From: Mediterranea sp. (in: CFB group bacteria)
GTDB lineage: Bacteria; Bacteroidota; Bacteroidia; Bacteroidales; Bacteroidaceae
Direction of reading: 5' to 3'
NCBI GenBank assembly: GCA_031259755.1
Contig: JAIRKY010000007.1
Coordinates: forward strand, 1 to 41,181
DNA length: 41,181 bases
The notes under the pieces are model-generated. The model worked only from the letters and a program-made list of their open reading frames with translations. It was not told the origin of the DNA and did no database searches. Positions within the stretch are counted from its first letter, which is position 1, and each line of letters opens with the position of its first letter. Shown one piece after another: positions 3,501 through 41,181 of this stretch. The position numbers and the translations under genes were made by a program.

Positions 3501-3512
3501 TTGATTATTATT

Positions 3513-5150
3513 ATGAATAAGAATATCATATATGGATTGCTGATTGCAGCAGTTTCATTACTGACGTTTTCTTCCTGTAATTCTTTCCTGGAAGAACATC
3601 CCAGAGATCAGATCTCTGAAGAAGAGGCAGGTAAAAGCCCTATGTTGGTTTATCTGACTTATGTGGCTTCCTTATATACTCAAGTCGGCGCTAACGGTGG
3701 CGGCAATGGCTTGCAAGGTACGGACCGCGGACTTTACGACCTCAATACATTTACTACAGATGAGGCTATGCTTCCTACCCGCGGCGGTGACTGGGATGAC
3801 GGTGGCTTGTGGAGAGGAATATTCAAACATGAGTGGGGAACAAAGAACGATCTGGTAAAAAGTTCTTGGGATTATTTATACAGGGTGATTGCCTTAGCCA
3901 ATCAGTCATTAGATAAATTAAACGAATTGTATGAAGGTGATCCGGAAAGCGCTGTATATCCTGGCTATATTGCAGAGGTAAGATCATTCCGCGCCATGTA
4001 TTATTATTATTTACTGGATATGTTTGCCCGTGTTCCGTTGGTAACATCATCGAGTATGGCTATGGAAGATGTGGTGCAGTCGGAGCGCAGTGCGGTTTTT
4101 AACTTTGTACGGACAGAGTTGGAAGAATCTGTAGGGTCTTTAAATGACGCACATAGTAATTTGCCCGGACCATATTACGGTCGTATAACAAAGCCTGTCG
4201 GATATTTTCTACTTGCTAAACTGGCTCTGAATTCGGAAGTTTATACGGATGACAATTGGACGGATGTCAATCGTCCCGATGGAAAGGATATCAAATTCAC
4301 AGTAGATGACACAGAGATGAATGCATGGCGGGCAACTGTGGCATATTGTGAAAAGATTACTGCGTTGGGATATACACTCGCTTCGGATTTCGCTTCAAAC
4401 TTTTCTTTGAAGAATGAAAGTTCTGTAGAGAATATCTTTACTATTCCGATGGATGCTACGGCCTATACCAATGAGTTTTATAATCTGATCCGTTCACGCC
4501 ACTACAATCATGGTAATGCTTACGGACAAGGAGGATGGAATGGTGCGTCGGCAACAAAAGAAGCGTTGGATGCATTTGGCTATGGAATGGCTTCTGTAGA
4601 TCCTCGTTTCGATATTACTTATTACGCAGGTAAGGTAGAAGGCCCTAATGGATATATCAAAATGGATGATGGTTTGGATTTGGAGTACCTGCCTTCGGAA
4701 ATCGCATTAGACCTGAGTGGTAAGCCCGCAGAGAAAACCGCTGGAGCTCGTATGAAGAAATATGAGTTGGATGCATCTGCAACGAACGATGGTAAGCTGC
4801 AAAGCAATGATATCGTTCTGTTCCGTTATGCTGACGCGCTTTTAATGATGAGTGAAGCCAAAGTTAGAAATGGCGAGAACGGTGATGCTGAACTACAGGC
4901 AGTACGTGGCCGCGTTGGATTGAATGACAGTATGACTGCTACATTGGACAACTTATTGGAAGAACGTCTGCGTGAATTTGCATGGGAAGGGCTTCGTCGA
5001 CAGGATTTGGTTCGTTTTGGTAAGTTCACCAGAACCTATACCGATCGTCCTCAACTAACAAATGAAGATAAGGGTTATACTACAGTATTCCCTATTCACG
5101 AAGACGTGCTGAGTTTGAATACGAAGTTGAGTCAGAATCATGGATATTAA
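3513..5150 (+). CDS. SusD/RagB-family nutrient-binding outer-membrane lipoprotein
   Basis: Surface lipoprotein that closes over the extracellular face of its SusC partner and delivers glycan. I start it at the ATG at 3513 because this gives a clean lipoprotein signal (LLTFSSC, lipidated Cys22) followed by NSFLEEHPRDQ, a usual SusD opening; the upstream in-frame TTG at 3501 would add four residues and touch the susC stop. The remainder shows SusD-type TPR helices (YYYYLLDMFARVPLV, RSFRAMYYYY) and the C-terminal family signature around ALLMMSEAKVR and ERLREFAWEGLRRQDLVRFG. About 545 residues is ordinary for the family. It is the second gene of the sus-like operon. Confidence 0.94.
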   Translation: MNKNIIYGLLIAAVSLLTFSSCNSFLEEHPRDQISEEEAGKSPMLVYLTYVASLYTQVGANGGGNGLQGTDRGLYDLNTFTTDEAMLPTRGGDWDDGGLWRGIFKHEWGTKNDLVKSSWDYLYRVIALANQSLDKLNELYEGDPESAVYPGYIAEVRSFRAMYYYYLLDMFARVPLVTSSSMAMEDVVQSERSAVFNFVRTELEESVGSLNDAHSNLPGPYYGRITKPVGYFLLAKLALNSEVYTDDNWTDVNRPDGKDIKFTVDDTEMNAWRATVAYCEKITALGYTLASDFASNFSLKNESSVENIFTIPMDATAYTNEFYNLIRSRHYNHGNAYGQGGWNGASATKEALDAFGYGMASVDPRFDITYYAGKVEGPNGYIKMDDGLDLEYLPSEIALDLSGKPAEKTAGARMKKYELDASATNDGKLQSNDIVLFRYADALLMMSEAKVRNGENGDAELQAVRGRVGLNDSMTATLDNLLEERLREFAWEGLRRQDLVRFGKFTRTYTDRPQLTNEDKGYTTVFPIHEDVLSLNTKLSQNHGY

Positions 5151-5182
5151 TATATTAATCCTTTAATCAGATGACTAAAAAT

Positions 5183-6616
5183 ATGAAAAAGATATTTCAA
5201 TATATGACTGCTTTCCTTTTGATTTTAACTGTTGGAAGTGGTTGTGAAGAGAATGATAATTGGAAGATCGTTACTGATACCCAACCAGGTGTTTACGTAA
5301 CAGGAGACGCTTTGATTTATAGCGCGGCGGCAACTTCCTCCGCTCTGAAAGCGGTAACTCAGGATATGGAAGATAGTGCGGTTGAGGCGTCAAGTGTAAC
5401 CGGTATTTATACTTGGATTAAATCCGAAGGTAGCTTTACCGTCCTTAAGGTAGATGCGGAAGGTAATGAAGTATCTTACGGCAAGGGGACTGCTGTTGCT
5501 TCTTCTCCATTCGAGACCGTAACCCTACAAGCTGATGGCCCGGCATTTACAGTAACAAGCGATGGCCTTTATTATGTAGTAACAAACAATACTGATAATC
5601 AGGTTACCATTATACCGGCGCAATTCGGTATTATTGGTGATGCAACTAAAGATGGATGGAATTCGGAAACGGTAATGTCTCAATCGTTTGATGAAAATCA
5701 AGCCATTGTAGAAATGAAACTGACTAACACGGAGTTGGATAAGAAATCCATGAAGTTCCGTTACCATGATTGGGGAATTGAAATTCCTTATGGAAGTGGA
5801 ACAGTTAAATTTCACTCCAATGTTGGAGGATTAGAAGCGATCAGTCTGGGCGCTACTTTCACAGAATGTAAAGCTGGTGGTGAAAACTTTGCTATTGACC
5901 AAAGGGGTATGTATGAAATTACGCTGCAATTAGACCTGCGTACCGGAATATTTAAAGCTAAAACAGTTCGTACAGGAGACAGTCAAGCGCCTGTAATGCC
6001 GGAAAATATGTATATGATTAGTTCTCCTACATGGAACTGGAGTGATGTAGGCGAAGGACTGGTTAAAACCCATGTTGATGGTAAGTTCTGGTCTGTACAA
6101 TATTTGCCGGCTGACGCTGAGATTAAGTTCTGCCCGGTGAAAGAGTGGGGTGGTGATTTTGGCTATACTGCCGCTAACTTGCCGCAAACCTCTATTGAAT
6201 TAGCCGGATTAACCGATAACGGAGGTAATATTAAGATCGGAACAGCCGATTGGTATCTTATTGTGGTAACTACTTCGCCATCTGACGGAAGTTATACGGT
6301 TGAATTCCTTGAACCGGAAATCTGGTTAGTGGGTGATATCGCTTCAGGCGGGTGGAGCCCGGGAAATAATCCGGTAGACAAATTCACAGTTCCTACCGAT
6401 GCTACCGGGGAATTTGTTTCTCCGGCTTTCATCAGTGATGGTAAGCTTCGTATGTCAGTCGTTATTCCGGGTGCGGAATGGTGGCAAACAGAGTTTAATA
6501 TCATTGACGGTAATATTGTTTATCGGGGAAATGGCGGTGATCAAGACGCTCCACAAGTTACTGCCGGACAAAAGGCTTATCTTAAGTTCAGTGATGGCGC
6601 AGGACGGATTCAATAA
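5183..6616 (+). CDS. SusE/SusF-like starch-binding outer-membrane lipoprotein
   Basis: Accessory surface glycan-binding lipoprotein. From the ATG at 5183 the signal peptide ends in a lipobox (TVGSGC, Cys21); an in-frame ATG at 5171 would add four residues. The C-terminal two thirds contain repeated SusE/F-like carbohydrate-binding modules. One opens with FGIIGDATKDGWN near residue 150, one with MYMISSPTWNWSDVG near 275, and one with IWLVGDIASGGWSPGN near 380. The GDA/GDI..GW opening motif with aromatic residues is characteristic of these modules. The position, directly after SusC/SusD and before the amylase, matches the susCDE order. Overall sequence similarity to SusE was judged by eye and is modest, so I give no gene symbol. 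Confidence 0.82.
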   Translation: MKKIFQYMTAFLLILTVGSGCEENDNWKIVTDTQPGVYVTGDALIYSAAATSSALKAVTQDMEDSAVEASSVTGIYTWIKSEGSFTVLKVDAEGNEVSYGKGTAVASSPFETVTLQADGPAFTVTSDGLYYVVTNNTDNQVTIIPAQFGIIGDATKDGWNSETVMSQSFDENQAIVEMKLTNTELDKKSMKFRYHDWGIEIPYGSGTVKFHSNVGGLEAISLGATFTECKAGGENFAIDQRGMYEITLQLDLRTGIFKAKTVRTGDSQAPVMPENMYMISSPTWNWSDVGEGLVKTHVDGKFWSVQYLPADAEIKFCPVKEWGGDFGYTAANLPQTSIELAGLTDNGGNIKIGTADWYLIVVTTSPSDGSYTVEFLEPEIWLVGDIASGGWSPGNNPVDKFTVPTDATGEFVSPAFISDGKLRMSVVIPGAEWWQTEFNIIDGNIVYRGNGGDQDAPQVTAGQKAYLKFSDGAGRIQ

Positions 6617-6633
6617 ATTAGTTTGATTATACT

Positions 6634-6661
6634 AAAAGGTCGTCTTTAAAGACGACCTTTT
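6634..6661 (+). terminator. Perfect 28-bp palindrome between SusE-like gene and amylase
   Basis: AAAAGGTCGTC runs into its exact complement GACGACCTTTT through a central TTTAAA, so the stem is perfect and T-rich at its 3' end. It lies 17 bases after the SusE-like stop and 20 before the amylase start. It could end the susCDE transcript or let only part of it run into the amylase. Confidence 0.7.
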
Positions 6662-6681
6662 ATCCTTTTATAGACTTAGTC

Positions 6682-8961
6682 ATGAAGAAAAAGAATCTCT
6701 TTATTTTGGCTTTATTGTTGATATTTGCCGCTTGCTCGGACAATAAAGACCCTATAACTCCCGACCCTATTCCCGATGGAATAACCCTTTCCCCTGAATC
6801 CCTTGAAGATACAGGTGAGGCTACCATTACGTTTAAAGCCGCCAAAACTTCTGTACTTTACGGATATACAGGCGATGTGTACGCGCATATCGGAATTGTA
6901 GAAGGAAACGATTGGTTATTCGTTCCCGCAGGTTGGAATGAAAATATCAGTAAGTGTAAGATGACCAAAGAAGAAGATGATGTTTGGAGCCTTTCCTTTT
7001 CTTCATCCATTCGTTCTTGGTTTGGCGTGACCAATGGTATGCCGATACGGAAAATCGGTATTGTATTCCGTAGTTCTGACGGCGCAAAGCAGGAATCCGA
7101 TGCGTTTATTCCCGTGACCGACAATACTTTTCGGCCGGCTACTGTTGTGTCCGAAGCTCAGCCTGCCAATACTAAAGAGGGTATTAATGTAATAAATGAT
7201 GCTACCGTAACCTTTGTGCTTTATGATAAAGATACGAACGGTAATCACAAAGAATACGCTTATGTTATTGGTGAATTTAATGACTGGAAGATAGATAATA
7301 ACTATCAAATGAAGCGTGATGAGGCTACCGGTTGTTGGTGGTACACTTTAACGGAACTGGATCCACAGAAAGAATACGCTTTCCAATATTATGCAGGTAC
7401 AAAGACCGATGGTAATGTCCGTTTGGCCGATGCTTACACCGAGAAGGTGATTGATCCGGAGGATACAGGAATTTCTGCTTCAACCTATCCGGATTTACAT
7501 CCTTATCCTTTGAGTAAGACCGCTGGTATCATTTCGACCTTTAAAATAGAACAGGATACGTATAATTGGCAAGTCTCGGACTATAAGATCGCGGATAAGA
7601 ATAATCTGGTTATTTACGAAATGTTGTTCCGCGATTTTACTTCTACAAGTGATATCAATGGAGCAATGGATAAGCTCGACTATTTGCAGGCGTTGGGCGT
7701 GAACGCTATTGAATTGATGCCTATACAAGAGTTCGACGGCAATGATAGCTGGGGATACAACCCATGCTTCTACTTCGCGATGGATAAGGCTTATGGTACC
7801 AAGGATATGTATAAGACCTTCATCGATGAATGTCACAGACGTGATATGGTTGTAATCTTAGATGTGGTTTATAATCATGCTACCGGAGCGAATCCGTTTG
7901 CCAAACTTTACTGGAATTCAACGGCAAATAAAACAGCCAGTAATAATCCTTGGTTTAATGTCGATGCTCCGCACCCGTATAGTGTGTTCCATGACTTTAA
8001 TCATGAGTCGCCTTTGGTACGCGCTTTTGTAAAACGTAACCTCAAATTCCTGCTTGACGAATATAACATAGACGGCTTCCGTTTCGACTTGACAAAAGGT
8101 TTCACACAGAAGAAGAGTACCGAATCAACGGCAGGTAATTATGATCAAAGCCGCATTGATATTCTGAAAGACTATAACGCAACAATTAAAGCCGCTAATC
8201 CGGATGCAATCGTTATCCTTGAACATTTTGCCGAAGAGAAGGAAGAGAAAGAACTTGCCGGGGACGGTATGCAACTTTGGAGAAACCTGAATAATGCGTA
8301 TTGCCAAACCGGTATGGGATATAAGGAAAGCAGTGCATTTACAGGTCTTACTACTCAAGGTACAACCATGCCTTCCGGTGGTTGGGTAGGCTATATGGAA
8401 AGTCATGATGAAGAGCGTGTTTCGTATAAACAAATCACATGGGGTATAGATGCCGTGAAGAATAATCCGGCTATCCGTATGAAACAATTGGAAGCCAATG
8501 CTTCATTGTTCTTTACAGTTCCAGGCCCGAAAATGATTTGGCAATTTGGTGAGTTAGGGTATGATGTTTCTATAGAAGAGAACGGACGTACCGGTAAGAA
8601 GCCGGTGCGATGGGAATATTATGATAATCCACATCGTAAAGGCTTGTATGACACATACCGTAAACTCATTGAATTGCGTACTTCTGTTCCTCGACTATTT
8701 GATACGGAATCCGCCTTTATTTGGAAGGTGGGGGAAGGCAATTGGGATAACGGCCGGACATTATCATTGAAAACACATGATGGTAAAGGGTTGGTAGTTG
8801 CGGCTAATTTTAAAGATGTCGAAATAACTTGTACGCTGACTTTCCCGTCGATCGGTACATGGTATAACTATATAGACAGGAGTACGCTTGATATTGAAAC
8901 AACAGAGCAAACGATCGGGGTTCCGGCAAATAGTTACTTGATATACACAAGTTTCCCATAA
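6682..8961 (+). CDS. GH13 alpha-amylase lipoprotein
   Basis: Probable surface- or periplasm-anchored glycoside hydrolase cutting alpha-1,4-glucan for the adjacent Sus transporter. The signal peptide ends in a lipobox (IFAAC, Cys18). A CBM48-like beta domain (YVIGEFNDW near residue 195, then KEYAFQYYAG) precedes the catalytic barrel. All four GH13 regions are present: DVVYNH from 394, DGFRFD from 464 with the nucleophile Asp469, the acid Glu514 in ILEHF, and SHDEER from 574 with Asp576. A short beta domain closes the protein (ANSYLIYTSF). At 759 residues it is a little longer than Bacteroides SusG and lacks an obvious inserted CBM58, so it is SusG-like in role rather than a clear orthologue. 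The palindrome before its start suggests separate or reduced expression. Confidence 0.92.
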   Translation: MKKKNLFILALLLIFAACSDNKDPITPDPIPDGITLSPESLEDTGEATITFKAAKTSVLYGYTGDVYAHIGIVEGNDWLFVPAGWNENISKCKMTKEEDDVWSLSFSSSIRSWFGVTNGMPIRKIGIVFRSSDGAKQESDAFIPVTDNTFRPATVVSEAQPANTKEGINVINDATVTFVLYDKDTNGNHKEYAYVIGEFNDWKIDNNYQMKRDEATGCWWYTLTELDPQKEYAFQYYAGTKTDGNVRLADAYTEKVIDPEDTGISASTYPDLHPYPLSKTAGIISTFKIEQDTYNWQVSDYKIADKNNLVIYEMLFRDFTSTSDINGAMDKLDYLQALGVNAIELMPIQEFDGNDSWGYNPCFYFAMDKAYGTKDMYKTFIDECHRRDMVVILDVVYNHATGANPFAKLYWNSTANKTASNNPWFNVDAPHPYSVFHDFNHESPLVRAFVKRNLKFLLDEYNIDGFRFDLTKGFTQKKSTESTAGNYDQSRIDILKDYNATIKAANPDAIVILEHFAEEKEEKELAGDGMQLWRNLNNAYCQTGMGYKESSAFTGLTTQGTTMPSGGWVGYMESHDEERVSYKQITWGIDAVKNNPAIRMKQLEANASLFFTVPGPKMIWQFGELGYDVSIEENGRTGKKPVRWEYYDNPHRKGLYDTYRKLIELRTSVPRLFDTESAFIWKVGEGNWDNGRTLSLKTHDGKGLVVAANFKDVEITCTLTFPSIGTWYNYIDRSTLDIETTEQTIGVPANSYLIYTSFP

Positions 8962-9001
8962 AATTAGGATATGTGGTAATCATTCTATCAAGAATATCAT
9001 G

Positions 9002-9009
9002 TATCTTTG
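9002..9009 (+). promoter_or_regulatory. -7 promoter element immediately before ruvA
   Basis: TATCTTTG matches TAnnTTTG and ends only four bases before the ruvA ATG at 9014, so transcription would start at or next to the start codon. No clear -33 TTTG is seen. Confidence 0.45.
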
Positions 9010-9013
9010 AATC

Positions 9014-9604
9014 ATGATTGAATATGTTAGAGGCGAATTGGCCGAACTGACTCCGGCCGTCGCAGTGGTAGATTGTAACGGGGTAGGCTATGCGGTGAAT
9101 ATATCTTTAAATACCTACTCAGCCATACAAGGAAAATCCGTTTGTAAGTTATATATCCATGAGGCTATCCGTGAAGATGCCCATGTACTTTATGGCTTTG
9201 TTGATAAACAAGAGCGCGAACTTTTCCTTTTACTGATCAGCGTGTCGGGAATCGGTGGAAATACGGCACGGACCATACTTTCAGCGTTAAGCCCGACAGA
9301 GCTTTGTCATGTGATAAGCGCTGGAAACGTAACCCTGCTGAAGGCCGTAAAAGGTATCGGGCAAAAGACAGCGGAGCGTGTTATTGTGGAACTGAAAGAT
9401 AAGATACGCATAGGCGCTTCATCCATAGATAGCGGAATTTCTACATCCGGCGGAAATGGCGCAGTGCTGGAGGAAGCTGTCGCCGCATTGACCATGTTAG
9501 GCTTTGCCCCAGCCCTTTCACAGAAAGCGGTGATAGCTATTTTGAAGGAAGATCCGCAGGCGCCGGTGGAAAGTGTTATCAAACAAGCCTTTAAGCGGTT
9601 GTAA
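9014..9604 (+). CDS. ruvA: Holliday junction branch migration protein RuvA
   Basis: DNA-binding subunit of the RuvAB branch-migration motor, which holds the Holliday junction for RuvB and RuvC. The N-terminal OB fold ([22 protein letters not shown]) is followed by the tandem helix-hairpin-helix region near residues 70-125 ([17 protein letters not shown] and [20 protein letters not shown]). A flexible Ser/Gly linker and the RuvB-binding C-terminal domain (LTMLGFAP, then [13 protein letters not shown] end) complete it. At 196 residues it is full length. It follows the amylase by about 50 bases but has its own -7 box, so it is probably not part of the sus operon. Confidence 0.97.
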
Positions 9605-13800: not shown

Positions 13801-15351
13801 TTATTCTTTGTAAGAAAGAATATCCGCGTTGTAATCCACTTCCTTGGCCGGGTAAATCCAAGTCCATTGGTTATTGTCCGATGGATTGATAGTAACAGCA
13901 AATGAGGTATGGAAACTGCCTCCATCCGCATGAGCGTGACGGACTATCGGTTGGTTCCAGCGTTTGTAGTCGAACCAGTCGAATCCTTCTCCCCACAGGT
14001 CGATACGACGGTAAAGTTTCACTTCGGTCAGCAGTTCCGCTCCGGTTTTCGTGCACGTATACTCAGAATTGCGGCCCGACGTTTTGTTGAGAGCTACGAG
14101 CAGTTGCTGCACTTCCGTGTCCCTGCCGCCAATGTGGCACAAGGCTTCGGCTTCGGTGAGATACATCTCGGCGGAACGGAAGTTGTTGACATGCCCCACG
14201 CCCGGCTGGTCGAGCACCAGGAACTTGAATTGCATGTAGGCAAAGATGTAACTGGTTTCGAAAATCTTGTTTGCGTAGTCTTTTCTTGCACGGTCGTACA
14301 AGGCGCCTGAGCTTGCGCGACCGTTAGAAGTTGTGTATGATTCACCCTTGGGATCAAGATACATGTTCCTGCGCACATCGGTTTCAGGTATCTGGTTGTA
14401 CAGTTCTTTGCTGATGCCGCAAGGATAGGTGCGGCAAACGCTGGCGCTGGAGTTGGCTCCCTGATAGGCATGGAAAGAGTAATAATGCAACGTCTGGTCG
14501 CTGGCGCCGTAGCAACTCCAGATCCATTCCTGGTTGGGGGAATTGAAACCGCCGTCCATATATTCACTGTTTGTCATCAACGGATAACCGTCGCGCGCAA
14601 GTTTTGCATACTGGGCGGCGGCAGTCCAGTCCTCCCGTGTCAGTGCGGCGCGGGCGTAAACCGCATAAGCCACGTTCAGGTTGGGGCTATAGTTGTCGTT
14701 GCTCGGACGGTCCAAGCCGGACGATTTGTACAGTCCGATCGCTTCGTCCAGGTCATCGTATACCTGTTTGTACGTCTCCGCCAACGTAGAAGCCGGCAGG
14801 TCGCCATGGCTTTCGTCAAGGCGCAACGGTAAACCGCGGCTTGCCCCGCTGTTACTGTCCACCCAACGTTTGCAGTAAAGCTGGCTCATCATAAAGTAGC
14901 TGTAAGCGCGGAAAGTCAGCGCCTGCGCCTTGATGAAGTCCTTCTCTTCGTTAAGCCCCGTCGCATTCTCTATGTTGCAGATGATGGCGTTGGCATTGCC
15001 GATCAGTTTGTAATAGTAATACCAGGGATAATAGAGATAAACAGATGTGTTCCGCTCATTGTATGTTGAATTGGTAATGGGCGCCCAACCGGTAAGATTG
15101 CATTTCTGGAAGTCGTTGCCGGTATAGTTGCCGTACCACGTTTTGATGGTGCCTTCGCCGTTGAATCCCTGTGTAGTCAGGTATTGGCGCGCCATCATGT
15201 AACAAATGCCATTGAGGGCCAGTTTGGCGTTATCGGTCGTTTCAAGAATAATTCCGGTGCTGACCGAGGATTGAGGTGTGGTGTCCAGATAGTCGTCGGC
15301 ACAAGACGAGAGCGCCATTACCACGCCTAATGTATAGATAATCTTTTTCAT
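13801..15351 (-). CDS. SusD/RagB-family outer-membrane lipoprotein (second locus)
   Basis: Nutrient-capturing lid of the SusC encoded just upstream. The signal peptide ends in MALSSC with Cys17, followed by ADDYLDTTPQS, a classic SusD opening. TPR-type helices are visible (AQALTFRAYSYFMMSQLY near residue 145, YDDLDEAIGLYKSSGL near 200), and the C-terminal signature is present (SAEMYLTEAEALCHIGG, then YRRIDLWGEGFDWFDYKRW). At 516 residues it is complete. It follows its SusC by 24 bases and is the last gene before the terminator; no glycoside hydrolase, sigma or anti-sigma gene accompanies the pair. The DNA is visibly richer in G+C than the first sus locus. The substrate is unknown and need not be a sugar. 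Confidence 0.94.
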   Translation of the reverse strand: MKKIIYTLGVVMALSSCADDYLDTTPQSSVSTGIILETTDNAKLALNGICYMMARQYLTTQGFNGEGTIKTWYGNYTGNDFQKCNLTGWAPITNSTYNERNTSVYLYYPWYYYYKLIGNANAIICNIENATGLNEEKDFIKAQALTFRAYSYFMMSQLYCKRWVDSNSGASRGLPLRLDESHGDLPASTLAETYKQVYDDLDEAIGLYKSSGLDRPSNDNYSPNLNVAYAVYARAALTREDWTAAAQYAKLARDGYPLMTNSEYMDGGFNSPNQEWIWSCYGASDQTLHYYSFHAYQGANSSASVCRTYPCGISKELYNQIPETDVRRNMYLDPKGESYTTSNGRASSGALYDRARKDYANKIFETSYIFAYMQFKFLVLDQPGVGHVNNFRSAEMYLTEAEALCHIGGRDTEVQQLLVALNKTSGRNSEYTCTKTGAELLTEVKLYRRIDLWGEGFDWFDYKRWNQPIVRHAHADGGSFHTSFAVTINPSDNNQWTWIYPAKEVDYNADILSYKE

Positions 15352-15375
15352 TCTATTGCTTTTTTAAGATGTTGA

Positions 15376-18300
15376 CTATAATTTGATATTGACGCCGATG
15401 GAGAATACCCTCGGAGTTACCAGGTAGTTGTACTGCGATCCGTCAAACGCTTGCTGCGGGTTCATACCCTGGCGGGCGGTAAGCGTAAACAGGTTCTCGC
15501 AATTTGCACTGATCCCGATTTCTTGCAGGTCGAGGATCTTGACCCAACGTTTCGGCAGTTGATAGCTCAACGTAATATTTTTCAGTACGAGATAGTCCGC
15601 GCTGGTGAGCCAGCGTGAAGACGTGGCGTTGTTGTCTGCACTGAGCGTATTGTTTATCATGGGTATGCCATTGGGGTCGATGCGGTTTTCCGATGTTTCG
15701 GTCATTCCTTCGGGAACAGCTTTCCATGAGTTTATAATGTCTGCATGGTAACTGCTCGGTGTACCGCCGGTGCCCATTAAAGAGGCATAAACGCCATCGT
15801 AGGTCTTTCCGCCTAAAGCGTAAGTAAAGAGGGCGGACAGAGAGATTGACTTGTAGGCGACGGAACCCGTGAAGCTGCCATAAACCTTAGGCAGTGAAGA
15901 ACCGTGAAATTCTTTCAGCGCATACGTGGTATTGTTTACGTAGTATTCATCGCCCACTTTGATGGCATTGGCGGTGATATCCGTTCCCTCGTCATTGCCG
16001 ATAACCGTGTCGTCGACTTTGACGTAGTTTTTCTCCAAGTCGGCCTTATACAGGGATTTCCCCGTCCATTGGTCAACCCCGGCGAACGTCGGCAGGAAAA
16101 ATTCGTACCGGCTTCTGCCTTCCACAATCTTATAGTTGCCCGATATGATTCCGTCTTTGTTCTCTTCGGGCAGTTTGATGATTTTGTTCTTGATGAACGA
16201 CATGTTTGTGGCTAAATTCACCCTCCAACCATTTGAACGGTAAACGTCTGCATCCGTATTGATTTCAATACCGCGGTTGGAGATGGTGCCGATGTTCTTG
16301 GTAATGGTAGCGCTGGCCGAACCCGAATCGTTGGCGCCGGCAGACAGCGGTAGATATACATCGAACAGCAGGTCTTTGTTTCGTTTGTCGAAATATTCCA
16401 CACTGATGTTCCAGCGGTTGAACAGGCGGCTTTCTATGCCTGCGCCCCAAGCTTCTCCGGTTTCCCATTTCAACTCTTTGTTTTCGTACTGCGTAATGTA
16501 GTACGCTCCCTTGTTAGCGTTTTGTTCCGCGGTATAGAGCGCCATGTATCCATAGTAACCGGCGCCAGCGTCATTACCTACCTGTCCCCAGTTGGCGCGC
16601 AGTTTCAGACTGTTGACCCAGGAGATGGATTTCATGAACTCCTCTTCGGAAATAATCCAGTTGGCGCCAATGCTGCCGAAATTCCCCCAGCGGTTGTCCT
16701 TGTAGAAACGGGAGGAGCCGTCGCGGCGGAATGAAACTTCCAGGTTATACTTGTCGGCATAGTTGTAACGGATGCGTCCCAGATAGCTCTCGGTACGGTA
16801 GTTACCGTCGTATCCGTCCAGTGATGTGATGTTGGTGAAGTTGGAGAGATGCGTCTTGCCCGCAAACACTTCGGAGGTCTTGTAACCATATTCGTAACTG
16901 TAGTTGTAATAATAGTTTTCGTGGGCGACCAATGCATCGACATAATGCTTGCCGTATAAGTGGTTCCAGTTTAATTGCTCCTGAACCGTATAGTTTTTGT
17001 ACCGGTATCGGATACGGCTGGCGCGTCCCAGGTTTCCCTTACCGTCGCCGATGGAGGCGTTGTTGTAGCTCTGGTTCTCCGAGGTACGCACATTCAGGTC
17101 GCCTTTTACCGTAAAGGTAAAGTCTTTCAGGAACTTGACGTCCAGGAATGCGATCCCTTGCAGCGTGTTACGAAAAGTCTTGTCCATGTTCAGTTCGTTT
17201 TCCCAAATGACGTGCCTGTCGACATACTGGTTACGGGTAGACACATTCACACTTTCGTCGTTTATATAGTATCCCGGGTCGTATTGCGGCTTACCGTCTT
17301 GGTCCAGCCGGTATGAACCGTCGGCGTTATGTATATGTACGGGATATATGGGCGCAATCTGACGTGCATACATGAATACGTTGGTATAACTGCTACTGCT
17401 GTCGCCGTTCGTGAAGTTCGACAACTGATGGGTTCCCGACAGGTTCAACCCGCCTTTCAGCCATTTCTTCGGCGTGAAGGTCAACGAAGTGCGCGCCGAC
17501 AAGCGGTTGAAGTCCGAATTGGTGGCATAGCCGTTTTCATCCAGGTAGCCTAAGGAGAAGTAGAGACTGCTCTTTTCATTCGCCACGTTTCCGCTAAGTG
17601 TATATTCCTGGCGGAAACCGTCGCGGATAGCGCCGTCGTACCAGTTTAAGTCATCGGTGTAGCCCGACAGGATTTGCGCGTCGGCTACCAGGTTTCCGTT
17701 GGAATCGAACAGCGCATTGTTCGCCTTGTTGAATATATTGAGATAAAGGTCATCCGAAATAAGGTTATTCGAGGCGTAAGCGGCTGCGGTGGCTTCATCG
17801 TCGCCTGCCGAGATACGCCTGTTCTTCACGTTCTGCCAGGATACTTCCATGAACTGGTAGGGATTGACACGTTCGTACTCCTTGATTCCCCGGCTGTAAG
17901 TGCCCTGGTGTACTCTCAGGTCGATATTCAGTTTCTCCGATGTACCGCGCTTTGTCGTAATAAGGATAACGCCGTTTGATGCGCGGTTGCCGTAAAGCGC
18001 GCACGAAGCGGCGTCTTTCAGCACGGACATGCTTTCAATGTCGCTCGGGTTGATGTCCGAGATATTACCGCCGAAAGGTACGCCGTCGATAACGTAAAGC
18101 GGATCGCTACTACCGTTTACGGTGCCGAAACCACGTATGCGGATGCTGGGTTCATCGCCCGGTTGTCCGTAAGTGCTGTTTACCTGTACGCCTGAAGTAG
18201 TGCCTTCCAAGGCTGAGGTTATGCTCGACACCGGACGCTTTTCAATTTCTTTCACATTTACGCTGGAAATAGCGCCTGTAAGGGATGTCTTCTTGGCGGT

Positions 18301-18642
18301 GCCATAAGCCACCTGGATCACCACTTCCTCCAACATTTCGGCATCCGGCCCCAATTCTACTTTGAGAATACCGGGCTTTATGGCCACTTCCTGCGTCTGC
18401 ATACCTATGAATGATACCTGCAAAGTCTTGGCTGTGGCAGGTACATTCGAGATTAGGAACTTGCCGTCGATATCCGTAACGGCGCCAACAGTGGCGCCTT
18501 TCACCAATACCGAGGCTCCGACAACCGGCTCTCCATCTTCTGTGGAAATCACAACACCCTGCACTGTGGAGGATGTCTGAGCCGTTACTAAACCGATGCT
18601 CAGAAATAAGCATGACAGTAATGCGAATACTCTTTTTATCAT
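15376..18642 (-). CDS. SusC/RagA-family TonB-dependent outer-membrane transporter (second locus)
   Basis: Outer-membrane import barrel paired with the following SusD. It has a signal peptide of about 21 residues ending VTAQ, and a carboxypeptidase-regulatory-like domain at about 28-95 (GEPVVGASVLVKG, GAVTDIDGKF). The plug follows from about residue 110 (VVIQVAYGTAKKTSLTGAIS, then IRIRGFGTVNG and PLYVIDGVPFGG), and the long barrel ends VFSIGVNIKL. At 1088 residues it is about 100 longer than the first SusC and lies in the usual 1000-1100 range. No STN domain precedes the carboxypeptidase-like domain, so direct anti-sigma signalling is unlikely. I see no canonical TAnnTTTG box close upstream; an activator may be required. 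Confidence 0.95.
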   Translation of the reverse strand: MIKRVFALLSCLFLSIGLVTAQTSSTVQGVVISTEDGEPVVGASVLVKGATVGAVTDIDGKFLISNVPATAKTLQVSFIGMQTQEVAIKPGILKVELGPDAEMLEEVVIQVAYGTAKKTSLTGAISSVNVKEIEKRPVSSITSALEGTTSGVQVNSTYGQPGDEPSIRIRGFGTVNGSSDPLYVIDGVPFGGNISDINPSDIESMSVLKDAASCALYGNRASNGVILITTKRGTSEKLNIDLRVHQGTYSRGIKEYERVNPYQFMEVSWQNVKNRRISAGDDEATAAAYASNNLISDDLYLNIFNKANNALFDSNGNLVADAQILSGYTDDLNWYDGAIRDGFRQEYTLSGNVANEKSSLYFSLGYLDENGYATNSDFNRLSARTSLTFTPKKWLKGGLNLSGTHQLSNFTNGDSSSSYTNVFMYARQIAPIYPVHIHNADGSYRLDQDGKPQYDPGYYINDESVNVSTRNQYVDRHVIWENELNMDKTFRNTLQGIAFLDVKFLKDFTFTVKGDLNVRTSENQSYNNASIGDGKGNLGRASRIRYRYKNYTVQEQLNWNHLYGKHYVDALVAHENYYYNYSYEYGYKTSEVFAGKTHLSNFTNITSLDGYDGNYRTESYLGRIRYNYADKYNLEVSFRRDGSSRFYKDNRWGNFGSIGANWIISEEEFMKSISWVNSLKLRANWGQVGNDAGAGYYGYMALYTAEQNANKGAYYITQYENKELKWETGEAWGAGIESRLFNRWNISVEYFDKRNKDLLFDVYLPLSAGANDSGSASATITKNIGTISNRGIEINTDADVYRSNGWRVNLATNMSFIKNKIIKLPEENKDGIISGNYKIVEGRSRYEFFLPTFAGVDQWTGKSLYKADLEKNYVKVDDTVIGNDEGTDITANAIKVGDEYYVNNTTYALKEFHGSSLPKVYGSFTGSVAYKSISLSALFTYALGGKTYDGVYASLMGTGGTPSSYHADIINSWKAVPEGMTETSENRIDPNGIPMINNTLSADNNATSSRWLTSADYLVLKNITLSYQLPKRWVKILDLQEIGISANCENLFTLTARQGMNPQQAFDGSQYNYLVTPRVFSIGVNIKL

Positions 18643-38658: not shown

Positions 38659-39187
38659 CTGAAAAAGATTATCCTTTACATTGCAGCATCACTTGACCAA
38701 CGCATTGCGGAATCAGATGGTAGCTTGGAATGGCTTACCGGAGTTCCTAATCCCCAAAAGACAAATAGCGAATACAATGATTTATTGGCTTCGGTCGATA
38801 CGGTACTTATTGGTGGACGAGCCTATCGTGAACTTTTAAACATGGAAGTTATTTGGCCTTATCAGGAGTAAATGACGTATGTAGTATCACATCATAATTG
38901 GGGGTGCAAAAGAAAAAATACGCTATATTACGGACAATATCATTGAAACCATATCTGCGCTACGCAATGAAAAGGGGAAAGATATTTTGCTGGCTGGTGG
39001 TGGTGAATTAACTTCAATGCTTCTTACTGCGGATTTGATAGATGAAATGCAGATAACCTACATTCCTGTGATTTTAGGTAAAGGTATTCCGTTATTTCCA
39101 GAACAATCTAAAGAATCGAAATGGAAATTGACAGAAATCCAATCTTACAAATCAGGTAGTTTAATGATAGAATACCGGAAAATTTAG
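38659..39187 (+). pseudogene. Decayed dihydrofolate reductase-like (RibD C-terminal domain) gene
   Basis: Two out-of-phase pieces read as one protein. The first starts at a CTG (38659) where an ATG would be expected and gives KKIILYIAASLDQRIA, DGSLEWLTG and DTVLIGGRAY, then hits TAA after WPYQE at about 38871. TYVVSHHNW continues in that frame, then the phase shifts near 38900. The rest reads AKEKIRYITDNI, KDILLAGGGEL, PVILGKGIPLFP and MIEYRKI, ending at 39187. Those are the conserved blocks of the small RibD_C/DHFR-like reductases of about 175 residues. A lost start, a stop and a frameshift make it non-functional unless the sequence has errors. Confidence 0.82.
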
Positions 39188-39239: not shown

Positions 39240-39575
39240 CTATTTCGTAACTTCCTCGAAATGTTGCTGTGCCCAATCAATCATCTGTTGGATTGTTGAC
39301 ATCAGGCTTTTCCCCGTTGCTGTTAATGAGTATTCTACTCGTGGCGGTATTTCTGCATATGCTTTCCGTGTAACAAGATGAGCTTCTTCTAAATGCTTCA
39401 ATGTATTTGTCAGCATTTTGTGCGAAATATCAGGAATAGTAGCCATTAGCTCTTTATAGCGCATATTATCTTTTACTCCCAAAGAGCATAATACCAACAA
39501 AGACCATTTATCACTAATGCGATTCAATACGTTTCTGATTGGACAAGTCGGGTATTGCAAATCTAATTCTCTCAT
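39240..39575 (-). CDS. HxlR-family winged-helix transcriptional regulator
   Basis: DNA-binding regulator of 111 residues. Family marks are the N-terminal Cys motif (YPTCPIRNVLNRISDKWSLLV), RYKELMATIPDISHKMLTNTLKHLEE in the recognition region, and the wing PPRVEYSLTATGKSL. The N-terminal Cys11 position is redox- or electrophile-sensing in some relatives. It is divergent from the Cys-rich peptide gene, which begins 240 bases away, and convergent with the decayed reductase, whose intact relatives often sit beside HxlR genes. It may therefore control either or neither. Confidence 0.92.
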   Translation of the reverse strand: MRELDLQYPTCPIRNVLNRISDKWSLLVLCSLGVKDNMRYKELMATIPDISHKMLTNTLKHLEEAHLVTRKAYAEIPPRVEYSLTATGKSLMSTIQQMIDWAQQHFEEVTK

Positions 39576-39731: not shown

Positions 39732-39746
39732 GGTGAGTAAGTCACC
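39732..39746. promoter_or_regulatory. Inverted repeat beside the peptide promoter
   Basis: GGTGA and TCACC flank GTAAG, ending three bases before the -33 TTTG. The position suits an activator or repressor of the peptide operon; HxlR is a nearby candidate. Inference only. Confidence 0.35.
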
Positions 39747-39748
39747 TG

Positions 39749-39780
39749 TTTGCACGGGCTTTTAAACACATCTACTTTTG
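39749..39780 (+). promoter_or_regulatory. Canonical promoter of the Cys-rich peptide operon
   Basis: TTTG at 39749-39752 and TACTTTTG at 39773-39780 are 20 bases apart, matching the Bacteroidota consensus at every fixed position. The predicted leader is about 27 bases. Confidence 0.8.
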
Positions 39781-39814
39781 CCCTGTATTAATAACTCAAT
39801 AAATCATAAAAGCT

Positions 39815-40081
39815 ATGAGCAAATTAAGTTTTCTAAACGGTTGGGGAAAAGTAGGAAGTTACTTTACCCGTCGTAGTGCCCAAAGTGTTATGGGTGCAAA
39901 CCCAATAGCATTTGCTGCATCGGGCTGTAGCTCATCTTGTGGTTCAGGCGATGATGCAAAACCGGTATCGGCATGTGGTACAAGCGACGATGACCAAAAA
40001 CCTGCATCGGCATGTGGGGCTGGCGATGATGAAAAATCCGCTGCATGTGGTTCAAGTTGCGGTGCAAGCGACGACAAGTAA
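39815..40081 (+). CDS. ACGX-type repeat peptide, predicted radical-SAM-modified RiPP precursor
   Basis: An 88-residue peptide with no membrane helix or signal-peptidase signal. Residues 1-36 form a leader-like part with aromatic and basic residues (FLNGWGKVGSYFTRR, then MGANPIAFAAS). Residues 37-88 are almost only Gly, Ser, Ala, Lys, Asp and Cys. Six cysteines lie at 38, 42, 54, 67, 78 and 82. Four of them open a Cys-Gly-x-x-Asp-Asp module (C42, C54, C67, C82), three with Ala-Cys-Gly or Ser-Cys-Gly context, and C38/C42 and C78/C82 form CxxxC pairs at both ends. A radical SAM/SPASM gene follows. From memory, databases name such peptides 'ACGX-repeat' and pair them with a dedicated maturase; I could not check this. 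The product, modification and role are unknown. Confidence 0.85.
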   Translation: MSKLSFLNGWGKVGSYFTRRSAQSVMGANPIAFAASGCSSSCGSGDDAKPVSACGTSDDDQKPASACGAGDDEKSAACGSSCGASDDK

Positions 40082-40090
40082 ATGCAAAGC

Positions 40091-40134
40091 GTCCCGACCT
40101 GTATAACGAAATTATGTGGTCGGGACTTCTTTTA
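40091..40134 (+). terminator. Attenuator-like hairpin between precursor and maturase
   Basis: GTCCCGACC (40091-40099) pairs perfectly with GGTCGGGAC (40118-40126), followed by TTCTTTT. It sits 10 bases past the peptide stop and 28 before the maturase ATG. Partial termination would make far more precursor than enzyme, a common RiPP arrangement. Confidence 0.75.
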
Positions 40135-40161
40135 AGGCTACAATTATTAAATATTTGAACA

Positions 40162-41181
40162 ATGGAATACTTCGCTTTTCAATGGCATATAACCGATAGC
40201 TGCGACCAACGTTGCAAGCACTGCTACATTTTTTCGGAAGACATTCATTTCAAAGTGAAAGAAATGTCTTGGTCTGAAATGGAATCGGTTTTTAAAAACT
40301 GTTTTGATATGTGTGAAAAGGCAGGGCGTATTCCATATTTCTATATAACCGGGGGCGATCCTATCCTGCATAGTCGGTTTTGGAATTTAACAGAGCTTTT
40401 CAAAGCAAACAATATCGCTTTTTCTATACTCGGCAATCCTTTTCATTTGACCGATGAAGTTTGCCGCAGGTTAAAAGATGCCGGCTGTGAAAGGTACCAA
40501 TTATCGATTGACGGACTACGCGAAACGCACGATGCGATGCGTAAACCCGGTTCTTTTGATATTACCCTTGAAAAAATTGAAGTCCTCCGCAATGCAGGAA
40601 TACGCTGTGCCGTTATGACTACTGTTTCGGGAACGAATGCCCACGAAATAGCAGAAATCATAGATACGGTTGTGGAACATAAGGTGAACATTTTTGCTTT
40701 TGGACGTTATTGTCCGACAAGTAGCGAGAAAAGTACGCACCTCACTCCCGAACAGTATAAAAATGTGCTTGAAGTCTGTTGGCAAAGATTCGAGCAATAC
40801 AAAGATAGTGGAACCAGTTTCAACCTGAAAGATCACCTTTGGACGCTATTTCTTTATGAAAAAGGGTTATTCCAAATTCCCGTAGGGTTGAAAGACAATA
40901 TAATTTATGAGGGTTGTAATTGTGCGAACTGCCACCTCACGATATTACCCAAAGGAAAGGTATATGCGTGTCGCCGCATGGAAAGTAATGTAGGGAATGT
41001 ATTCGACGAAAAACTGTTTGATATTTTCACAGGCGAAAAAATGGATTATTACCGTGATTACGACAAGTTTGAAAAATGTTCTAAATGCGAACTCAAACGA
41101 TTTTGTCGCGGATGCCCTGCGGTAGCATTTGGCTATACTGGAAATTTTTATGCTCCCGACCCTCAATGCTGGAAACAAGTA
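40162..41181 (+). CDS. Radical SAM/SPASM peptide maturase, ACGX-type system (3' end beyond window)
   Basis: Predicted enzyme that modifies the Cys-rich peptide using S-adenosylmethionine. The radical SAM cluster motif is C14-x3-C18-x2-C21 (TDSCDQRCKHCYIF). The GGDP motif follows near residue 61, as does the LSIDGLRETHDAMRKPGSF strand typical of SPASM maturases. The C-terminal SPASM domain has C252, C254, C257, then C270 in a CX7GX4C pattern, C306-x2-C309-x5-C315-x2-C318, and C336. This is enough for two auxiliary iron-sulphur clusters. 340 codons are present and the frame is open at the window edge; the protein is probably within a few residues of its end. I chose the ATG at 40162 because the first strand (EYFAFQWHITDSC) starts there. 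Confidence 0.9.
   Translation, partial: MEYFAFQWHITDSCDQRCKHCYIFSEDIHFKVKEMSWSEMESVFKNCFDMCEKAGRIPYFYITGGDPILHSRFWNLTELFKANNIAFSILGNPFHLTDEVCRRLKDAGCERYQLSIDGLRETHDAMRKPGSFDITLEKIEVLRNAGIRCAVMTTVSGTNAHEIAEIIDTVVEHKVNIFAFGRYCPTSSEKSTHLTPEQYKNVLEVCWQRFEQYKDSGTSFNLKDHLWTLFLYEKGLFQIPVGLKDNIIYEGCNCANCHLTILPKGKVYACRRMESNVGNVFDEKLFDIFTGEKMDYYRDYDKFEKCSKCELKRFCRGCPAVAFGYTGNFYAPDPQCWKQV

Follow-up and report, generated by a model that had tools for sequence, protein, structure and literature searches.

The 41,181 nt contig of Mediterranea sp. analysed here (JAIRKY010000007.1, assembly GCA_031259755.1; the whole stretch is referred to below as the window) carries at its right end the ACGX system, a gene pair for a ribosomally synthesized and post-translationally modified peptide (RiPP), together with a regulatory gene. 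On the minus strand is the gene for an HxlR-family regulator of 111 aa (39240..39575), and divergent from it, on the plus strand, are acgA (39815..40081), specifying an ACGX-repeat precursor peptide of 88 aa, and acgM (40162..41181), which follows after 81 bp and specifies a radical SAM/SPASM maturase (TIGR04340, PF04055, PF13186). The window ends where the contig ends (C110 in our set), and acgM runs off it with no stop codon in the available DNA; the 340 aa present, compared with mostly 340–345 aa among the relatives listed, suggest that only a few residues are missing.

The first-pass annotation, made from the sequence alone, had assigned this pair to the ACGX class, and profile searches bear this out. 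AcgM scored 592.8 bits against TIGR04340 (cut-off 400), and AcgA scored 29.0 bits against TIGR04341 in the protein scan, marginally above the cut-off of 28, and 20.8 bits, below it, in a six-frame scan. Gene order is equal to that of the ACGX system of NCBIfam (acgA, TIGR04341; acgM, TIGR04340), and no difference from that system was found. The gene pair belongs to an already named family, and the interest of acg lies in the relationship of AcgM to SbtM, in the A-C-G repeat unit of the peptide and in the redox setting of the operon.

The structural description given earlier was also correct: an 88 aa peptide with four CGxxDD motifs, CxxxC pairs and a leader-like N-terminus, next to an enzyme with CX3CX2C and SPASM cysteines. 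The leader of AcgA (residues 1–36, 39815..39922) contains RSAQ and lacks a hydrophobic signal-like stretch, and the core (39923..40078) holds five Cys-Gly units (Cys42, 54, 67, 78 and 82) plus Cys38, which precedes Ser and not Gly. The CGxxDD motifs start at Cys42, 54, 67 and 82, the CxxxC pairs are at 38/42 and 78/82, and an acidic residue occupies position +4 for four of the five CG cysteines. In AcgM, the CX3CX2C motif of the SAM-binding 4Fe-4S cluster (Cys14, 18 and 21; 40201..40224) is shared by 26/26 AcgM and 19/19 SbtM rows of our comparison. The SPASM cysteines (252, 270, 306, 309, 315, 318 and 336; 40915..41169) include a CX2CX5CX2C stretch with the spacing of SbtM, and the set is kept in all 26 AcgM rows.

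Relatives were collected as the best 80 of 115 loci from a contig scan of species-level genomes, plus three from plasmid records; the window's own copy (L001) is excluded from all counts of loci. By title, the 83 loci belong to Bacteroidales, Lachnospiraceae, Oscillospiraceae and other Clostridia, and one lies on an archaeal plasmid (Methanosphaera, sheep rumen). The co-occurrence of precursor and maturase expected by the first-pass annotation is found widely, with 78 of the 83 having a CG-repeat open reading frame (ORF) at most 1.5 kb before acgM. The gap exceeds 400 bp in six of these 78; in L003 a cupin gene lies between the two, and in the Methanosphaera locus (L083), where acgM is split, the distance is that to its second piece. 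Three of the five loci without a peptide (L043, L050 and L080) start near a contig end; the other two, L060 and L073, offer enough upstream sequence yet show no CG-repeat peptide within 1.5 kb. As a control, the remainder of the same loci (900,750 bases) contains 32 ORFs with at least two [ASGP]CG motifs, three of them with at least three. TIGR04341 was too weak as a genome-wide detector (2/295 genomes at E 1e-3, neither over the cut-off), and peptides were therefore located by position. AcgM is rare in the window's order (2/295 genomes over the cut-off); the sample includes two further genomes of the window's genus, and both lack a match above the cut-off. The plasmid copies, scattered hosts and occurrence in two domains of life suggest horizontal spread. 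A phage or virus link was rejected: phages gave no match at 1e-20, and three stretches in the viral_contigs set fitted a pattern, none of which codes for a relative.

Several of these copies show features of their own. The annotation of a Roseburia plasmid already calls the two genes acgA and acgM. The acgM of L002 is full-length and 85% identical to that of the window, and L011 is from a cultured species, Labilibaculum manganireducens. In the Methanosphaera rumen plasmid, acgM (7995–9019) is annotated as two ORFs and has BREX genes close by. Genome G258, from the window's family, contains a short stretch (C3:112459-112740) that matches TIGR04340 at 65.9 bits and is interrupted by two stops, perhaps a decayed acgM.

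Conservation of the peptide was assessed over 77 distinct sequences from the 78 relatives and the window. Counting began at the first CG of each peptide, which leaves out 56 earlier cysteines, Cys38 of the window included, some of them within over-long ORF starts. On this basis, 415 of 416 core cysteines precede Gly, a figure that is partly by construction. The residue before the core Cys is Ala in 355 cases, Ser in 44 and Gly in 11 (A, S or G in 410/416), and that at +2 is A, S or T in 404. The number of CG units varies from 2 to 10, a variation in repeat number that had been anticipated. Position +4 of the CG units is less uniform: Asp or Glu in 202/415, Cys in 168/415, and another residue or nothing in 45/415. 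In 19 of the 77 peptides Asp and Glu are fewer than the CG cysteines (L068 has four CG units and one acidic residue), and the Methanosphaera peptide has no acidic residue at +4 but Glu at +3. Judged by these counts, the family does not follow a rule of one Asp for each Cys, and the repeat unit of the family is A-C-G, frequently doubled as ACG-x-ACG. CGxxDD, which the first-pass annotation had taken as a module with Asp as the crosslink partner, is ruled out as the repeat unit because Asp is not general, and no side chain that could act as a distant acceptor is fixed among the 77 peptides.

These counts leave room for a thioether in AcgA. PapB chemistry acts on CX3D, and a ranthipeptide-type crosslink, from the Cys sulfur to the beta-carbon of Asp or Glu at +4 (CX3D/E) with one ring per module, would suit all four CGxxDD modules of the window and the 202 units with an acidic +4 residue. 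PapB is likewise a radical SAM/SPASM enzyme with a short Cys-rich precursor, and its model (NF047865) does match AcgM; the score, however, is 63.1 bits against a cut-off of 340, far less than that of the SbtM model described next. With Cys at +4 in 168 units, neither kind of residue in 45, and the acid-poor peptides just mentioned, we regard PapB-type thioethers as unlikely.

Apart from TIGR04340, the family model that AcgM matches best is SbtM (TIGR04082), at 174.2 bits over positions 198–504 only of the 516 in the profile (cut-off 350), and the following family scores 130.1 bits. The relationship is seen from the other side as well. For an SbtM of the window's phylum (L116; 487.5 bits against its own model), the next-best family is TIGR04340 with 157.4 bits, followed by one with 84.4. 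Two maximum-likelihood trees place AcgM and SbtM as sister clades, with AcgM outside the SbtM clade in both. Protein searches supplied the best 120 of 2972 matches for AcgM and the best 120 of 1765 for SbtM. The first tree (75 rows; support 97/91) comprises 13 of the 120 AcgM proteins with 13 loci, 18 of the 120 SbtM proteins with L116, and 30 others; our filter found no full ORF in L095, and the L120 row is an ORF beside the match, not the match itself. The second (60 rows; support 92/89) adds seven PapB-like proteins, one MftC and one TIGR04053 protein, and drops 15 of the others and nine AcgM or SbtM rows; the PapB-like L134 yielded no ORF. All seven PapB-like rows, each under the PapB cut-off, fall outside the AcgM-SbtM clade, a further point against PapB-type thioethers. 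A tree with a true PapB was impossible, as 0/119 genomes exceeded that cut-off.

Shared residues agree with the trees. The CX2CX5CX2C pattern is present in 26/26 AcgM and 19/19 SbtM rows, in none of the five nearest unnamed SPASM proteins and in 1/25 other SPASM rows. AcgM and SbtM also share a QWH motif and GNP, and G91, P93 and C51 are common to both and absent from the five nearest other proteins. AcgM differs in lacking the part before position 198 of the SbtM profile, and its substrate differs in having A-C-G units and no signal-like leader. Next to the AcgM-SbtM clade is a clade of short, unnamed SPASM proteins with the QWH motif (L087, L089, L090, L091 and L092), near which no repeat peptide was prominent as a precursor. 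The L116 SbtM shares 95% identity with an SbtM named Chlorobiaceae. Upstream of its gene, positions 1121–1402 encode a peptide that contains two KKCAGM units, begins with a signal-like segment and matches no NCBIfam model.

A second kind of thioether, that of sactipeptides, would join Cys to the alpha-carbon of a near small residue (Gly, Ala or Ser at +2 or +3, or upstream). Residues at +2 and +3 of AcgA are mostly small, sactionine acceptors vary, and the top match of AcgM among proteins of solved structure is SkfB (40.7 bits). The sactisynthase models nevertheless score low (StsB 57.1 bits, SkfB 54.4 bits), and no recurrent immunity or export gene was seen beside acg among the neighbour clusters, which makes a sactipeptide improbable.

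The regulator and the redox genes around acg were missed by the first-pass annotation. The HxlR protein of the window scores 102.4 bits against PF01638 (cut-off 20.8) and has CPIRN at residues 11–15, with Cys11 near the N-terminus. In 39 of the 77 relatives whose flank spans 900 bp or more, the first upstream gene is a divergent HxlR gene, and HxlR occurs somewhere in the locus in 53 of 83. An N-terminal CP motif is present in 42 of the 43 HxlR ORFs listed (36 by pattern, 6 by eye), the exception being an extra ORF in L041. In divergent gene pairs, HxlR faces acg in 38/53 and other genes in 10/103 (Fisher 3e-15, a value inflated, like that below, by near relatives among the loci). We take DUF24 to be the family of HxlR. 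According to the part of the source used here (PMC6943732), the DUF24 proteins HypR, YodB and CatR sense HOCl, quinones or diamide via an N-terminal Cys, and their targets include azoreductase and nitroreductase.

Between the two divergent genes of the window is a candidate acgA promoter, TTTG-N20-TACTTTTG (39749..39780, plus strand), assigned from the pattern TTTG..TAnnTTTG, which we take to be the -33/-7 consensus of Bacteroidales; the pattern recurs in 4 of 42 other intergenic regions (L002, L006, L009 and L010). Adjoining it is an inverted repeat, GGTGA-GTAAG-TCACC (39732..39746), a weak candidate for an operator, with no counterpart in these 42 regions; L036 has a different GTGA/TCAC repeat. 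The idea of a conserved operator palindrome was rejected, GGTGAGTAAGTCACC being present in the window and in 0/42 of the other regions.

Downstream of acgM, in the 76 loci with at least 1500 bp of sequence, the first gene codes for a nitroreductase in 27, a zinc-type dehydrogenase in 25 (labelled 'quinone-oxidoreductase-like' by us), a pyridoxamine-oxidase-like or ferredoxin protein in 12 and something else in 12, giving a redox gene in 64/76, with Pfam run on representatives. For close co-directional pairs, such a gene comes next in 65/71 cases after acgM and in 10/380 after other genes (Fisher 3e-60), the control pairs excluding those whose first gene is itself one of the three oxidoreductases. 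A protein in which a pyridoxamine-oxidase-like domain is fused to two 4Fe-4S stretches recurs beside acg (L071, 5852–6529; L082, 9723–10310; L083, 6434–7045), and is possibly an electron donor for AcgM. So regular an association could also be read as the sign of a peptide-derived redox cofactor, similar to pyrroloquinoline quinone or mycofactocin, in which AcgA is trimmed to small units that serve the adjacent oxidoreductases. Against this, no recurrent peptidase or further maturation gene was seen by reading the neighbour clusters, and the three oxidoreductase families are unrelated, alternate after acgM and are none of them obligatory; a cofactor of this kind is very improbable.

The leaders of AcgA bear on where the product stays. 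By our own patterns, 44 of the 77 peptides have an SAQ-type and 25 an MALxN-type leader, and 0/66 testable leaders passed a simple hydropathy threshold for a signal-like segment, which the L116 peptide does pass. Among the 40 largest neighbour clusters, assessed by reading and by Pfam for ten proteins, no exporter or peptidase was seen at a fixed place beside acg; an ABC-ATPase cluster is present in nine loci at scattered positions. The placing of the pair, in many related microbes, among genes that deal with oxidants and reactive chemicals suggests an internal protective peptide more than a secreted antibiotic.

With regard to the chemistry, section 14 of a review (PMC11002830), the part used here, describes SbtM as stripping four hydrogens from a Cys peptide to give a thiooxazole. 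In the portion of PMC12668002 consulted, MNIO enzymes form thiooxazoles at Lys-Cys-Gly repeats, and one of them, FonBC, accepted a substrate with its cysteines in ACG and depended on a small residue following Cys. Because of the kinship with SbtM, the conservation of the peptide and this tolerance of ACG by an MNIO enzyme, a change at each Cys alone is the most economical reading of the AcgA repeats. The MNIO thiooxazole peptides (captophorins, bufferins and bulbicupramide) resemble AcgA in their repeated Cys followed by a small residue (EGKCG type) and in their links to stress, and the bulbicupramide cluster has no proteases nearby. They differ in being made by an MNIO enzyme and its partner, not a radical SAM enzyme, and in the Lys before Cys of the EGKCG type; most MNIO precursors, moreover, have Sec signal peptides, a feature not matched by the AcgA leaders.

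Thiooxazole peptides bind copper in the parts of PMC12538549 and PMC12668002 that we draw on, and the Cys-Gly repeats of AcgA would suit a metal (copper-type) buffering peptide, an anaerobe counterpart of bufferins and captophorins to which the redox genes are secondary. No metal transporter or metal regulator was seen in the 40 neighbour clusters (by reading, without a domain scan), HxlR and oxidoreductase genes recur at acg loci instead, and AcgA, unlike bufferins, has no signal-like leader. Metal buffering as the main role is, in our judgement, unlikely.

We therefore favour, with a probability of about 0.45, a cytosolic peptide of the redox or electrophile stress response, under HxlR control, whose Ala-Cys-Gly cysteines are changed singly, most likely to thiooxazoles. 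HxlR would sense oxidants or electrophiles, probably via its N-terminal Cys, and would hold the divergent promoter silent until altered by such a compound; it would govern acgA-acgM and, in relatives, NAD(P)H- or flavin-dependent oxidoreductases. AcgM would then recognise the repeated Ala-Cys-Gly and oxidise every Cys separately, abstracting a hydrogen from the beta-carbon and closing a ring with the carbonyl of the preceding residue to form a 5-thiooxazole, with a loss of four hydrogens per Cys, as for SbtM. From the leaders, and from the lack of a fixed exporter or peptidase in the clusters read, we infer that modified AcgA stays in the cytosol. There, its multiple thiols or thiooxazoles may scavenge electrophiles, undergo thiol-disulfide cycling together with the oxidoreductases of the operon, or bind a soft metal, and AcgA would serve as a thiol store together with these enzymes.

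A number of points weigh against this proposal. AcgM falls below the SbtM cut-off and has no counterpart to the first 197 positions of that profile, and sister families may differ in chemistry. Support in the second tree is slightly under the mark recommended for the tool, several outgroup branches are long, and PapB itself is unplaced since all PapB-like rows lie under its cut-off. In the peptides, Lys precedes Cys in the SbtM-linked peptide of L116 and in the EGKCG peptides, whereas AcgA has Ala; Asp, Glu or Cys at +4 in 370/415 CG units could be used by a crosslink model, and the cysteines ahead of the first CG, Cys38 of the window among them, stand outside the conservation count. As to the gene context, only 39 of the 77 loci have HxlR as their first divergent gene, and the fetched flank lacks it in 30/83, including Bacteroidales L014–L017; the window stops before any gene downstream of acgM; the 83 loci include near relatives, so both Fisher p-values are inflated; and the negative for exporters and peptidases comes mostly from the reading of clusters, short of a full domain scan. 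What the analysis shows is the family membership, the gene order, the conservation, the sister relationship of AcgM and SbtM and the lack of a signal-like leader; induction of the operon, the thiooxazole, the cytosolic location of AcgA and its protective role are steps that we infer.

A subset of the loci carries further genes. A Sir2-like (SirTM) or macrodomain gene is present, by cluster similarity, in 27 of the 83 loci, with both in 17, and the other 56 have neither inside the fetched flank. In the structure comparison, which covers L006 only, the sirtuin matches the class-M structure 5a3a-c (209.9 bits) and the macrodomain matches zinc-macrodomain structures such as 8rsi (252.2 bits). Of 198 genomes from the window's order, 28 match the L006 sirtuin to some degree, six of them above 200 bits, and none was found in the window's own genome (60% complete). 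In the parts of PMC4518038 and PMC11490716 used here, SirTM/Zn-Macro pairs of Streptococcus and Staphylococcus act on the lipoylated carrier GcvH-L beside oxidoreductases, their operons have links to the response against oxidative stress, and other pairs are described as having no known target. The extended operon (GcvH-L, LplA2, OYE, LLM) resembles this acg subset in combining a thiol-carrier protein, a modifying enzyme, oxidoreductases and SirTM/macrodomain genes, and differs in that AcgA and AcgM are found in place of GcvH-L and LplA2. AcgA could thus take the role of lipoylated GcvH-L, with AcgA and AcgM standing in for carrier and modifier: a cytosolic polythiooxazole redox carrier, the radical SAM equivalent of the MNIO peptides, that in the SirTM operons would be reversibly ADP-ribosylated by SirTM on the Asp or Glu next to each Cys unit and cleared by the Zn-macrodomain. 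This is the boldest of the readings, drawn from gene order, and we hold it to be improbable.

Elsewhere in the window is a partial RibD_C (dihydrofolate-reductase-like) ORF (38987–39187) that covers only positions 136–194 of the 197 in PF01872, and the gene looks incomplete or broken; a dihydrofolate reductase family protein is also encoded upstream of acg on the Roseburia plasmid. Further away, visual inspection of the translations points to two SusC/SusD-like outer-membrane pairs (531–8961 and 13801–18642), with an amylase-like gene after the first.

In the open-licence PubMed Central literature searched, no account of ACGX chemistry or function was found. Papers that contain the word ACGX do not, by their titles, concern this system, and ACGX does not occur in the listed papers on radical SAM and SPASM. 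Among the listed papers on radical SAM enzymes and thiooxazoles, no title or opening of an abstract points to ACGX; the searches for HxlR and RiPP gave none holding HxlR among the matches listed, and those for sirtuin or macrodomain with radical SAM and oxidoreductase none on such loci among the matches listed. By term search of the text available, PMC9062424 contains neither TIGR04340 nor TIGR04341, and PMC10352776 neither TIGR04340 nor ACGX.

If the favoured reading is true, AcgM would represent a second thiooxazole-forming radical SAM family, with a repeat substrate, and an oxygen-free route to a kind of peptide known from MNIO enzymes. AcgA would be a RiPP retained in the cell within a redox-stress regulon. 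It would also become testable on what some SirTM/macrodomain pairs act. If the carrier and ADP-ribosylation reading held as well, it would give a target for some lone SirTM/Zn-Macro pairs.

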